Source: Aeriscardovia sp.
GTDB taxonomy: Bacteria; Actinomycetota; Actinomycetes; Actinomycetales; Bifidobacteriaceae
Assembly (NCBI GenBank): GCA_017965665.1
Contig: JAGCPN010000003.1
Span: forward strand, 62,001 to 126,000
Length of the DNA stretch: 64,000 nt
Direction of reading: 5' to 3'
The number at the start of each line of letters is the position of its first letter. The stretch's first letter is position 1. A model generated the notes under the pieces. It searched no databases and had not been told where the DNA came from. It was given only the letters and a program-made list of their open reading frames with translations. The position numbers and the translations under genes were made by a program. This document shows, in pieces, positions 36,326 through 40,670 of the stretch.

Positions 36326-37342
36326 ATGGCGCGTCACCGCGGGGGTAAGGGATTATTCTTGAGCCCAAAGGCGATCGCCGTCGTCCTTTCCGTATTGGCG
36401 GCCGTGTGCCTTTTGGTGTGGGGAGGCCTGGCCATGGACGGGCTCTACTCAAAAAACAAGGCGGCCGCATCCTCCCTCATTCCCGCCCCTGCGCAGGCCG
36501 AGGAGGATTCCTATATTTCCGAAGGGGCGTACGGGGCCGAACCGGGTACAACCTATATAAAGGTCGTCATCAACGGCCAGTCCAGGTTTGTTTTCGGGAT
36601 GCACTTTACCGACGTAAAGTCGGTACTCCAGGAGGGAAACATCACCCTCCAGGCCGATGACACCGTCACCCCGTCGCTGCAGACTCCGGTGAACGAAAAC
36701 ACCGTCATCACCATAGACAACCCCAATTCCCAGGTCGTCACCCAGGACAGCCCCATAGCCTACAACGTCATAACCAAAAACGATCCTTCTATGCAAGTGG
36801 GGACCGAAAAGGTGCAGACGGAGGGCAAGAACGGCGTCATGCAGACCACCAAGCTCGTCAGGCGCACGGGATCCAAAGTCGCCTTTTCAAATACCATAGT
36901 CTCCTTTGTCAAAACCGCCCCCACAAATGAAGTGATCCTTGTAGGCACGCAGCCGGTCGCGCAAGCCTCTGCCGGAAGCTCTTCGTCATCATCTTCATCG
37001 GCCCAGACCCAGCAGTCATCCGGCGCCTCCTCCATCGGTACGACGCAGGCTGTAGGAAATCCGCAAAAAATTGCAGAACAGATGCTTGAAGAGCACGGCT
37101 GGGGAGGAGAGCAGTTCACATGCCTGGTGGAGCTGTGGCAAAAAGAATCGGGTTGGAGCGTAACGGCCGAAAACCCCTCCGGAGCATACGGCATCCCGCA
37201 GGCGCTTCCCGGATCCAAAATGGGGCCCGGCTGGCAGACCAGCGCCACAGTGCAGATTTCCTGGGGGCTTGAATACATCGCCACCCGCTACGGAACCCCG
37301 TGCGGGGCCTGGGCGCACGAAGTGGCGGACAACTGGTACTGA
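36326..37342 (+). CDS. Exported G5/DUF348-type cell-wall protein with lysozyme-like C-terminus
   Basis: 338 residues. An N-terminal span (IAVVLSVLAAVCLLVWGGLAM) anchors or exports it. TTYIKVVINGQSRFVFGMHFTDVKSVLQEG is a DUF348 ubiquitin-like repeat. SMQVGTEKVQTEGKNGVMQTTKLVRR and the rest form a G5 domain. After a serine-rich linker (SSSSSSSS), the C-terminal 90 residues (LVELWQKESGWSVTAENPSGAYGIPQALPGSKM) are a lysozyme-like goose/transglycosylase-type fold with the catalytic-like Glu in KESGW. It probably cleaves or binds peptidoglycan and resembles resuscitation-promoting factors in layout. ATG 36326 has GGGAGGACG upstream. Confidence 0.85.
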   Translation: MARHRGGKGLFLSPKAIAVVLSVLAAVCLLVWGGLAMDGLYSKNKAAASSLIPAPAQAEEDSYISEGAYGAEPGTTYIKVVINGQSRFVFGMHFTDVKSVLQEGNITLQADDTVTPSLQTPVNENTVITIDNPNSQVVTQDSPIAYNVITKNDPSMQVGTEKVQTEGKNGVMQTTKLVRRTGSKVAFSNTIVSFVKTAPTNEVILVGTQPVAQASAGSSSSSSSSAQTQQSSGASSIGTTQAVGNPQKIAEQMLEEHGWGGEQFTCLVELWQKESGWSVTAENPSGAYGIPQALPGSKMGPGWQTSATVQISWGLEYIATRYGTPCGAWAHEVADNWY

Positions 37343-37583: not shown

Positions 37584-37604
37584 GCGCAATTTTGCGCTTT
37601 TTTT
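37584..37604 (+). terminator. Second rightward terminator near the 3' end of the FIVAR-like gene
   Basis: GCGCAA/TTGCGC (37584-37589 and 37592-37597) followed by seven T residues in the plus direction. The opposite FIVAR-like gene ends at 37603 and gains no T-run from it. It could end a short rightward RNA from the preceding 200 bases. Confidence 0.65.
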
Positions 37605-39066
37605 ACTGCTTTTTGGCCGAAACCTGGTTTGACTGGGAGGAAGAGGGAGCCGAGGAAGAGCCGGCTAAAGAAGATCCGGAGTTAGATCCTTCGAGGTTGC
37701 CCTTGTTCGGCCCTGCCATGGTCTGATTGTAAGAATCCGCCCCGCTGCCGGCATCAGGGGTAGAAGCGTGGGAAGTGGATTGGGAAGAAGACGAAGAAGC
37801 AGACTTAGGGGCCTGCGCCGGAGAACTTGCCGACTCCGACTGCTGGGCCTGCGCTTTTAGCTTCTGGAGCTTTTGCTGCTCGTACTGCTGGGCGCTGGCC
37901 GTGACTTTCTCAATCGCTTCCTGAAGGGAAGTCTGCGCCGAAGCCATCTGGGAGGCTGTAGACGAAGTGTCCTGTTCCACGCTCTCAGCCTGGGAGAGCG
38001 CCTTTTGCAGCGCCGTTATGACAGCGGGATCGGCCACTTGCCCGTTGTTTTGGGCCAGAGCCTGTTTGCCTGAGGCGATAGCCTGGGAGAGGGATGACTT
38101 GGCCTTGTTGAGCGCCGCCTCGGCCTGGGAGCTCTTGAGGGCCTGGATGTCGGTATTGGTCTTGGAAATCAGGGTGTTTATCTGGTTGACGGCCTGGTTC
38201 ATAGCCTGCGCGTTGGAGGAGAGAAGGGCCGCGGAAGCCGAAGCCGGGCAGGACACTGCCACGGGGAGAGTTGTATCCACGTCTGACTGAAGGGCTGAGA
38301 CGAGGTTTCCGGCAGACTGGGAGTAGACCATGGAATCCAGTTCAGCCCGGGCGGTGGCTATCACCTGCTTGGCATTGCTCGAAGCGTTGTTTAGCTGGGT
38401 TTGGATCTGCTGGCAGGTCTCAAGCGCCCTCTGCCTCCTGTTGGTGCTCCACCACCACCATCCGCCAAATCCCAGGCAGATGAGGACGGCCAAAACTATT
38501 ATGAGGGCTATCCAGCCCCCTTTGCCCTTCTTTCCCTTCTTCTTTTTCTTTTTCGGGGCTTCATAGGCGTCCTGGCCATAGATCTGGCTGGAGGGGACGG
38601 AAGGAGGGGGAGTGAAGGGCGCCTGGGCGGTGGCAGGGAAGGCCTCGGAAAAGTCATAGGTGCCCGTTCCTGCGTCATCGTCTCCGTCATAGTCCACGTA
38701 TCCGAAGTCTTCAGGGGTGGCCCGGGTTTCAGACTTGCCGTACCCCTCGCCTTCTTCGCCTACGGGGCTCAAGTACATGGTGGTTTCGGCGGGGCTTTCC
38801 GGATCCGCAACAGATTCGGGGGAAATTACCCGGGTCTCCTCCAAATCCTGACCGCGTCCCACCGGCTTCATGCTGAGCCTTGTCGGGGCGCTGTCGTCCG
38901 GGATCTGACCCGAAGGCATGGTGCGCGTCTCTTCGACGGGGGAGATTACCTGGGTTTCTTCTTCGTTTCTAGGGGGAAGGGGAATTTTGCCCTTGCCGCC
39001 TTGGCCGGATTCGGGGGGCGAGGGAGGAATGATTTGCGTCTCTTCGTCGTCGCCGCTGCTTTTCAT
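37603..39066 (-). CDS. Membrane protein with repeated EET motifs and FIVAR-like extracytoplasmic region
   Basis: A 487-residue single-span protein. The cytoplasmic part (1-184) is acidic and proline-rich and repeats a short motif: EETQII (T10), EETQVI (T38), EETRTM (T47), EETRVI (T78) and AETTMYL (T95/96). A basic stop-transfer stretch (KKKKKKGKKGKGG) and a tryptophan-ended span (185-206) follow. The outside part is long, helical and rich in Ala, Gln and Ser, with a FIVAR-like unit (LNKAKSSLSQAIASGKQAL...AVITALQKALSQAES) and a low-complexity tail. FHA domains bind phosphothreonine with Ile or Val at +3, so the repeats may be kinase and FHA targets (inference). No homologue recognised. Confidence 0.7.
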   Translation of the reverse strand: MKSSGDDEETQIIPPSPPESGQGGKGKIPLPPRNEEETQVISPVEETRTMPSGQIPDDSAPTRLSMKPVGRGQDLEETRVISPESVADPESPAETTMYLSPVGEEGEGYGKSETRATPEDFGYVDYDGDDDAGTGTYDFSEAFPATAQAPFTPPPSVPSSQIYGQDAYEAPKKKKKKGKKGKGGWIALIIVLAVLICLGFGGWWWWSTNRRQRALETCQQIQTQLNNASSNAKQVIATARAELDSMVYSQSAGNLVSALQSDVDTTLPVAVSCPASASAALLSSNAQAMNQAVNQINTLISKTNTDIQALKSSQAEAALNKAKSSLSQAIASGKQALAQNNGQVADPAVITALQKALSQAESVEQDTSSTASQMASAQTSLQEAIEKVTASAQQYEQQKLQKLKAQAQQSESASSPAQAPKSASSSSSQSTSHASTPDAGSGADSYNQTMAGPNKGNLEGSNSGSSLAGSSSAPSSSQSNQVSAKKQ

Positions 39067-39272: not shown

Positions 39273-40670
39273 CTACACAACTCTGGGAAGAAACGCCGTA
39301 GGGGCTGAAGTGACGCGCACATTCGCCACTTTGGATCCGGTGTTTAAGGAGATCTTCCTCACCGTCACCGTGCGCTTTGAGAACTTCTCGAAGTCATTGT
39401 CTGTAAGACTGGAAGGGGACTTTACCATATTGAGGGTGAAGTCCTCCAGGTCGAGCCCTTCGGCTTTGGCTTGGGCGCAACTGGCGAGATACGAGGATTT
39501 AAAGCCCTTTGTAAACCGCACCCTTCCGGGAGAAACGCCGTAGAAGGACGAGCAGACGTAAGAAATCCTTGAGAGGAGGGGGAGGGAGCCCTTGTAGGGT
39601 TTTTTGGCCGCAGGCTGGGCCCGCTCCAGGCGGGAGAGGAGGGAAAACCCCAGATCCTCCAGCTCTTTTTCCCCGTCTTTGGCGGGGTTGAGGACCAAAG
39701 AACCCGGGAGCGGGGGCCTGCGGCTCTCCCCTTCGAACGCATTCAGGACAGGTATGGGGAAGATGCCCATGCGCCTTATGCACCTCAGTCCCGCAAGGTA
39801 CCTCCACCCCAGTTGTCCCTCTATGCTCCCCCTCCTGGCCACGGCCAAAGCGGCGCAGGGGAGAGGGGACTGGCGCTTGAAGGCGGCGTCCATATATTTT
39901 TGCATGCCCATGTCAAACCCGTATCCCGCCTCCATGAGGACAAAGTCGTACTCGCAGAGGGCGAGGTCCAGTGCCGAGAGGCCCGGTATCCCCAAAGAGA
40001 CGTTGGCAAAGGGGCCGCAGTACATCAGGACGGGGGAGCCGCGGAGGGTCGAAAGGAACGAGATCCTGCAGGCGCTCTCCAGCACCGGCCAGGCGGAGCA
40101 GAGCGGAAAGTCTTTGCCCCTTATAAACTTCCCGCCTTTTTTTGCGGCCGTAACCTCCCCAATCGAAGCCTCCAGTTCGCTTTGGCTTTTGGAAAGCACC
40201 CTTATCTGCTCCATCTCCCCCGTGGGGGTGAGCACATAGGATTCCTCCACTCCTCCGGCCCTGACTTTCCTGAGGTACTTTGTGGGGACGTCGGAGGCCC
40301 TGGGAAGAAGGATTTCCCCCTCCCCTTCAATCTCCTTTTCGGCAAAGCTCACCAGGAGATTCTGATAGGCCCCTACCCGGAGCATCTCTCCGTGGAGGCC
40401 GAAATCGGCCTCCACGGCCTCCCTGAGGGAGGAAGCTCCGACTCCGCTGGCTCCCCCCTTCGCCCCTGCCGCGCTGATGCCCATGCTGGGCTGCCTGAGG
40501 AGGGCGCAGGCGGAAGCGCCTGCGAGCCTCAGGGCGTCCAGCAGGGCCAGGGTGCAACTCGTCTTTCCTTCGCCCCTGGAGGCGGCGGAGGGCGGGGCTG
40601 CGGTGACGAGGAGGAGGCGCCCCTTTCTTTTTGCGTGCGCGGCGAATGCGCTTTGGGTCGAAACGGCCAA
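39273..40670 (-). CDS. Divergent formate-tetrahydrofolate ligase (Fhs)-like protein
   Basis: 465 residues, shorter than usual Fhs (about 500-560). Landmarks align along the chain: GEGKTSCTLALLDAL (P-loop kept), LRQPSMGISAAGAKGGASG for the LREPSLGP...KGGAAGGG loop, FLSTLRGSPVLMYCGPFANVSLG for the [20 protein letters not shown] loop, and VLMEAGYGFDMGMQKYMD for VTEAGFGADLGAEKF. Lost or changed are the INLHFTGD(x)HA segment and the DIKCR cysteine/lysine region. It may retain ATP binding but lose formate/folate chemistry. TTG 40670 has AAGGGAA five bases upstream. Fhs normally makes 10-formyl-THF from formate. Confidence 0.75.
   Translation of the reverse strand: MAVSTQSAFAAHAKRKGRLLLVTAAPPSAASRGEGKTSCTLALLDALRLAGASACALLRQPSMGISAAGAKGGASGVGASSLREAVEADFGLHGEMLRVGAYQNLLVSFAEKEIEGEGEILLPRASDVPTKYLRKVRAGGVEESYVLTPTGEMEQIRVLSKSQSELEASIGEVTAAKKGGKFIRGKDFPLCSAWPVLESACRISFLSTLRGSPVLMYCGPFANVSLGIPGLSALDLALCEYDFVLMEAGYGFDMGMQKYMDAAFKRQSPLPCAALAVARRGSIEGQLGWRYLAGLRCIRRMGIFPIPVLNAFEGESRRPPLPGSLVLNPAKDGEKELEDLGFSLLSRLERAQPAAKKPYKGSLPLLSRISYVCSSFYGVSPGRVRFTKGFKSSYLASCAQAKAEGLDLEDFTLNMVKSPSSLTDNDFEKFSKRTVTVRKISLNTGSKVANVRVTSAPTAFLPRVV

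Follow-up and report, generated by a model that had tools for sequence, protein, structure and literature searches.

A membrane protein of Aeriscardovia with a threonine-motif tail resembling PASTA-kinase juxtamembrane segments

The locus and its product

The window analysed here is a stretch of 64,000 nucleotides from an Aeriscardovia genome of 785 kb (99.9% complete), which was examined beyond the window via pattern searches and one 11-kb stretch. An open reading frame of 487 codons with an ATG start, occupying the same interval as in an earlier sequence-only reading, encodes a receptor-shaped protein with the following anatomy.

36326..37342, plus strand: convergent neighbouring gene for a lytic-transglycosylase-like secreted protein with G5 domain and AggPromo_Cterm (Pfam, NCBIfam, synteny)
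37603..39066, minus strand: gene for the single-pass membrane protein of 487 aa, its N-terminus placed inside according to the positive-inside rule (ORF, orthologues, AlphaFold2 model)
37606..37818, minus strand: Ser-rich disordered extracellular C-terminus (pLDDT <50 for residues 417-487; sequence)
37828..38448, minus strand: extracellular helical domain, residues 207-413, with conserved C218 and C273 and a FIVAR-like second half at about 317-397 (AlphaFold2, VIA-align, Pfam below cut-off, alignment)
38449..38514, minus strand: transmembrane helix WIALIIVLAVLICLGFGGWWWW, residues 185-206 (hydropathy and helix of the AlphaFold2 model)
38515..38553, minus strand: polybasic stretch KKKKKKGKKGKGG preceding the transmembrane helix (sequence; basic in all congeners)

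The tail was oriented by the positive-inside rule: since the polybasic stretch lies directly before the transmembrane helix, the tail should be cytoplasmic. AlphaFold2, run with the family alignment, placed helices at residues 184-413 and gave nearly all of residues 1-180 and 417-487 a pLDDT below 50, so that the cytoplasmic tail (1-180) is predicted to be disordered. Pfam found neither a kinase domain nor PASTA repeats in the protein, which sets it apart from PknB-type kinases, and no sortase motif was seen in the Ser-rich C-terminus. NCBIfam matches to RodZ, TrlF, GltJ and GspL were rejected, as their scores lie far under the cut-offs.

The G5/AggPromo_Cterm gene adjoins the gene in near and distant Aeriscardovia; in the short loci from other genera it did not appear. 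On the other side, an ORF on the minus strand (39273-40670) resembles formate-tetrahydrofolate ligase, with only positions 48-329 of the 556 of the model aligned. It is kept in the congeners and may therefore encode a divergent or repurposed ligase-like enzyme.

A helical ectodomain that recalls FIVAR modules

The sequence-only reading had placed a FIVAR-like helical domain outside the membrane. Modelled alone, the ectodomain is all-helical, with five helices and a mean pLDDT of 92, and its two cysteines, C218 and C273, are invariant in 12/12 family members. By sequence, FIVAR membership was rejected: PF07554 matches with E 0.0017 and 19.4 bits, under the Pfam gathering cut-off of 29.2, and we therefore call the domain FIVAR-like rather than FIVAR. 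Five of the 12 relatives match the same model at E <= 0.01, with a best E of 5.8e-5.

At the structural level, VIA-align matched the final helices of the model (residues 112-192) to the FIVAR region of NagH (2ozn_B) with 1.5 A over 73 residues and Z 10.6. The same helices also superpose on EngBF and Embp, the range for FIVAR regions being about 1.5-2.8 A; DnaK lid helices score like FIVAR modules, and such Z values are common for helical bundles. A Foldseek search of the PDB with the ectodomain model returned no match at E <= 0.001, and a PDB profile search returned weak helical matches only. The resemblance to FIVAR is weak by sequence and plausible by fold.

Five threonine motifs and their conservation

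All five motifs listed in the sequence-only reading (EETQII, EETQVI, EETRTM, EETRVI and AETTMYL) are present in the tail, at T10, T38, T47, T78 and T95/T96. An additional site of a second type had escaped it.

39022..39045, minus strand: motif 1, EETQIIPP, T10/I13; T10 invariant in 12/12, +3 always I/L/M
38938..38961, minus strand: motif 2, EETQVISP, T38/I41; E-E-T-Q-V-I-x-P genus-invariant, rank 1 of 828 Thr with the kinase juxtamembrane profile
38914..38934, minus strand: motif 3, EETRTMP, T47/M50; T47, M50 and P51 invariant
38863..38889, minus strand: second-type site, APTRLSMKP, T62; T62 genus-invariant
38818..38841, minus strand: motif 4, EETRVISP, T78/I81; E-E-T-x-V-I genus-invariant
38764..38790, minus strand: motif 5, AETTMYLSP, T96/L99; AETTMYL genus-invariant

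The residue at +3 had been described as mostly hydrophobic; it is so at all five motifs (I13, I41, M50, I81 and L99, the last counted from T96). The pattern [DE]T..[ILMVF] occurs four times in the tail against a shuffle mean of 0.42 (p 0.0005), and with Pro at +5 it occurs three times against 0.05 in shuffles. In genome-wide DNA pattern scans, no second cluster of such sites turned up in the 785 kb. The idea of a multi-copy EET family across the genome was rejected: the remaining EETxx[ILMVF] matches occur one at a time, many of them lie in enzymes or in the wrong frame, and the DNA pattern shows no enrichment relative to a reversed control. The proposed search for the pattern, PknB included, thus gave no second multi-copy protein and, in PknB, one related but different site. 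Separately, a one-transmembrane protein (L061, 1174-1842, plus strand; G000 contig C8 near 40.8 kb) has a single EEETQEISS in a disordered-looking N-terminal part and, judged by its sequence, is a possible second substrate.

Orthologues were found in six of six genomes of the genus, all of them MAGs from ruminant abomasum that carry the label Aeriscardovia sp. (family Bifidobacteriaceae), at 69-82% identity and at a fixed position in the gene order. One of them (G001) has an in-frame stop after the ectodomain and another (G006) runs off the contig end. In the G006 orthologue (L012/L073) the tail segment TRLMPPSRASGDEAPTRVGMIPTKHGADAEETQVIS is present twice, adding motif copies. This suggests that the motif number can grow by duplication, with an assembly artefact being possible at the contig edge.

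Alignment of six congeneric proteins, the window's and five others, showed all five motif threonines and all five +3 residues to be invariant. Conservation is specific for threonine, with 10/14 tail Thr invariant versus 2/17 tail Ser, and it is concentrated in the motifs: 27/40 positions of the motif windows (-2 to +5) are invariant versus 11/64 elsewhere in residues 1-104 (Fisher p 3e-7). Motif 3 lost its acidic residues in two congeners (TQTHIM). Motif 5 is retained as AETMYL (L014) or AETMYF (L013) in more distant Aeriscardovia. Poor conservation of the repeats, which the sequence-only reading had named as an outcome that would speak against it, was looked for; the repeats turned out to be well conserved.

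Further relatives came from a contig search seeded with the closer alignment set A2. The family spans Bifidobacteriaceae with many paralogues, some of which (L019, L033, L020) lack the motif tail, and tails outside the genus align poorly. The first motif can still be followed through the 12-member alignment, down to 25% identity. Motif-like sites, consisting of an acidic residue, T, hydrophobic +3 and Pro +5, are enriched in the Bifidobacteriaceae relatives. In non-congeneric relatives, Thr after D/E has a hydrophobic +3 residue in 23/49 cases versus a background of 16.6% (p 8e-7). Pro is likewise over-represented at +5, with p 0.02, or p 0.0006 for D/E at -1 or -2; these values, like all our shuffle and binomial tests, treat the sequences as independent although they are related. 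Threonines that lack an acidic residue at positions -1 to -3 are not significantly enriched in either feature (+3 hydrophobic p 0.07, +5 Pro p 0.84).

It could be argued that a low-complexity acidic, Pro-rich tail produces such repeats as a by-product of its composition or of internal duplication, with no binding role. The tail is indeed rich in E, P, S and T, and the duplicated segment in G006 points the same way, but the shuffle tests, the Thr-specific invariance and the recurrence in diverged relatives and kinases all speak against this explanation, which we regard as very improbable and as largely refuted by the sequence conservation in family and genus. The observation of a repeated threonine motif is confirmed, and it is stronger than first stated.

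A link to PASTA-kinase juxtamembrane segments

The match of the tail motif to the juxtamembrane motif of PASTA kinases is a new link at the sequence level, absent from the earlier reading. Juxtamembrane segments of PASTA kinases contain 29 matches to T[QRKEM][VILAMT][ILMF], distributed over 20/26 segments, where shuffles yield a mean of about 1.7-1.8 and a maximum of 7. Sites from related actinomycetes include TQVMSP, TQVLSP, TQAFNP, TQVLDP and SETRVMST, among others. A profile was built from all threonines of the juxtamembrane segments, without preselecting motif matches and excluding kinases of the window's genus. Among the 828 Thr in the gene-like ORFs of the window, the five tail sites rank 1, 2, 7, 10 and 18 with this profile. 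They share the features of the kinase sites: T-[QREM]-[VAILT]-[ILMF], a frequent P at +5, and a position close to a transmembrane helix. The second-type site T62 scores low; by eye only, its APTRLSMKP resembles a GarA-like N-terminus (ERTVIGLPP) and the juxtamembrane site of PknB in this genus (EKTMVAMPP).

In that PknB site (EKTMVAMPP, EKTQVALPP) the +3 position is taken by Ala, which does not fit the type-1 motif, and the exact type-1 site is therefore absent from the host's own kinase. In 30 actinomycete genomes (PASTA kinase loci L101-L130), a T-Q-[VA]-[MLFI]-x-P site is shared by juxtamembrane segments across the order, sometimes with two to three sites per kinase; from these sequences it is possibly a general FHA-docking code.

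Published motifs can be compared with the tail as well. For M. tuberculosis STPKs, the motif is given as an acidic run, T, X, (X/V), a large hydrophobic residue at +3, (P/R) at +4 and I at +5 (PMC6888350); in the logo from pknA depletion, acidic residues lie upstream and +3 is Leu/Val (PMC7164672). DDEETQIIPP, NEEETQVISP and LEETRVISP agree with the STPK motif, with Pro at +4 and/or +5, and the tail sites do not match the Ile that it gives at +5 (PMC6888350). FHA domains read pTxx[ILV] and strictly require pThr (PMC8786283). By sequence, the +3 residue of the tail sites is I in three cases and L in one, as in FHA ligands, M50 of motif 3 falls outside the strict [ILV] rule, and conservation of Thr and not of Ser in the tail agrees with the preference of these readers. 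Bacterial FHA self-peptides of GarA, OdhI and DgcB have Glu at -2 and hydrophobic residues at +2/+3 (PMC6733907).

Because a hydrophobic +3 residue belongs to the kinase motif and the FHA motif alike, the sequence does not reveal whether selection acts on FHA docking. In this context, the tail could be a kinase substrate without any FHA docking, in which multisite phosphorylation does no more than shift the charge or membrane association of the tail (a bulk electrostatic switch) and the hydrophobic +3 residue simply mirrors what the kinase prefers. Such a switch would suit a tail that abuts a polybasic stretch, and the published STPK motif itself contains the large hydrophobic +3 residue (PMC6888350). 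Nevertheless, we consider it unlikely: conservation restricted to Thr agrees with FHA readers (although Thr is also favoured by STPKs), the genome encodes five FHA proteins, and the similar site in the PknB juxtamembrane segment sits in the FhaA-binding stretch (PMC12077195).

Kinases, phosphatase and FHA proteins of the genome

The genome encodes three kinases and five FHA proteins, the latter with intact GR, S-x-x-H and NG residues, and the fhaA-fhaB-pstP-rodA-pbpA-pknA-pknB cluster is intact. In the PstP ORF (L131; G000:C6:60522-61940, minus strand), the cytoplasmic linker contains PPADTAEIPVIG, a similarly shaped site with Ile at +3 and Pro at +4.

One of the FHA proteins is GarA-like (L001; G000:C3:33577-33999), with an N-terminal ERTVIGLPP that reads GETTSIGLPAI in relatives (loci L078-L100), and such a protein is present in all congeners and most family members searched. 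The known GarA target classes are 2-oxoglutarate dehydrogenase, glutamate dehydrogenase and glutamate synthase. Searches of the genome confined to three of these families, namely glutamate synthase, ELFV glutamate dehydrogenase (as distinct from other families such as PF05088-type NAD-GDH) and the C-terminal domain of 2-oxoglutarate dehydrogenase E1, gave no match. The GarA-like proteins here may have another partner, for which the motif tail is a candidate and no more.

Proposed role

Taken together, the 487-aa protein is probably a multisite substrate of PknA/PknB that displays FHA-docking phosphothreonines at the membrane. PknA/PknB would phosphorylate the tail threonines of this receptor-like protein, the tail amounting to four to five copies of a T-[QR]-x-hydrophobic-x-P site as in the PASTA-kinase juxtamembrane segments of other actinomycetes. 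FHA proteins (FhaA, FhaB and/or GarA-like) could then read several phosphothreonines at once, and PstP would reverse the phosphorylation. Docking would gather the FHA proteins on the inner face of the membrane, opposite the helical ectodomain, which would contact the cell wall and position or sense there.

The interpretation as kinase substrate and FHA ligand, put forward in the sequence-only reading, is well supported as a prediction from sequence. Thr-specific conservation, the fit to the STPK motif and to FHA self-peptides, the recurrence in relatives and the match to the kinase juxtamembrane segments uphold it. Points against it are the Ala at +3 of the genus PknB site, the poor alignment of tails beyond the genus, the loss of acidic residues from motif 3 in two congeners and the paralogues without the motif tail. 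As a more specific and tentative version, the protein could be a bacterial equivalent of multivalent adaptors in signalling, a non-catalytic receptor whose several kinase-juxtamembrane-type pThr sites gather FhaA/FhaB/GarA at the membrane; an orphan GarA-like protein, its usual metabolic targets apparently gone, would thereby gain a membrane partner.

A different role would be that of a division or envelope anchor of the LamA/MmpS3 type, in which the ectodomain and transmembrane helix matter and the motifs dock a non-FHA divisome protein, phosphorylated or not. There are precedents, as MmpS3/LamA, a single-pass phosphoprotein with many phosphosites, belongs to the divisome, and juxtamembrane phosphosites of pneumococcal StkP recruit division proteins in streptococci, which are without FHA (PMC12077195). 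With a tail motif that fits FHA ligand rules, and with Pfam giving no hit of the MmpS type at E <= 0.01, this role appears improbable for the Aeriscardovia protein.

In actinobacteria, peptidoglycan synthesis is under the control of FHA proteins and PASTA kinases, and what is known of the docking sites shared by the two comes mostly from a handful of mycobacterial proteins. If one short motif occurs both in the juxtamembrane segments of kinases and in a separate family of receptors, it would allow substrates to be predicted throughout Actinomycetota. For bifidobacteria, which form a major group in the gut, we found little published work on FHA/PASTA-kinase signalling in the literature searched. 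That literature also yielded no earlier account of this protein family, which is not proof of absence. The protein may act as a docking board for cell-envelope signalling, and it raises the question of the job of GarA in a bacterium where none of the three searched target enzymes was found.

Comparison with known systems

Several known systems share parts of this architecture. MmpS3/LamA has one transmembrane helix and a cytoplasmic N-terminus. The likeness to this protein (Rv2198c) and similar mycobacterial proteins consists of a membrane protein with many phosphosites in an envelope or divisome context. In contrast, no sequence relation was found, the ectodomain is unrelated, and the printed MmpS3 phosphopeptides that were examined are without the tail motif. 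The FIVAR surface proteins NagH, EngBF and Embp resemble the second half of the ectodomain in having a helical module. The 487-aa protein differs from them in scoring below the Pfam cut-off, in having no enzyme and no visible sortase anchor, and in its cytoplasmic motif tail.

For the tail, the N-terminal ETTS switch of GarA/OdhI offers a parallel, as AETTMYL resembles GarA-type GETTSIGLP and ERTVIGLPP, with Glu at -2 and hydrophobic residues at +2/+3. The site in GarA binds GarA's own FHA domain, whereas the 487-aa protein has no FHA domain, and any FHA binding would therefore be in trans. The juxtamembrane segment of M. tuberculosis PknB binds and recruits FhaA when phosphorylated (PMC12077195; PMC6180346), and the printed peptide for the FhaA-binding CwlM site pT382 shows Phe at +3 (PMC6180346). 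As in the juxtamembrane segments of actinobacterial PASTA kinases, T-Q-x-hydrophobic-x-P sites lie in a disordered region beside the transmembrane helix; unlike PknB, the 487-aa protein combines four to five copies with a different, helical ectodomain and has neither kinase domain nor PASTA repeats.
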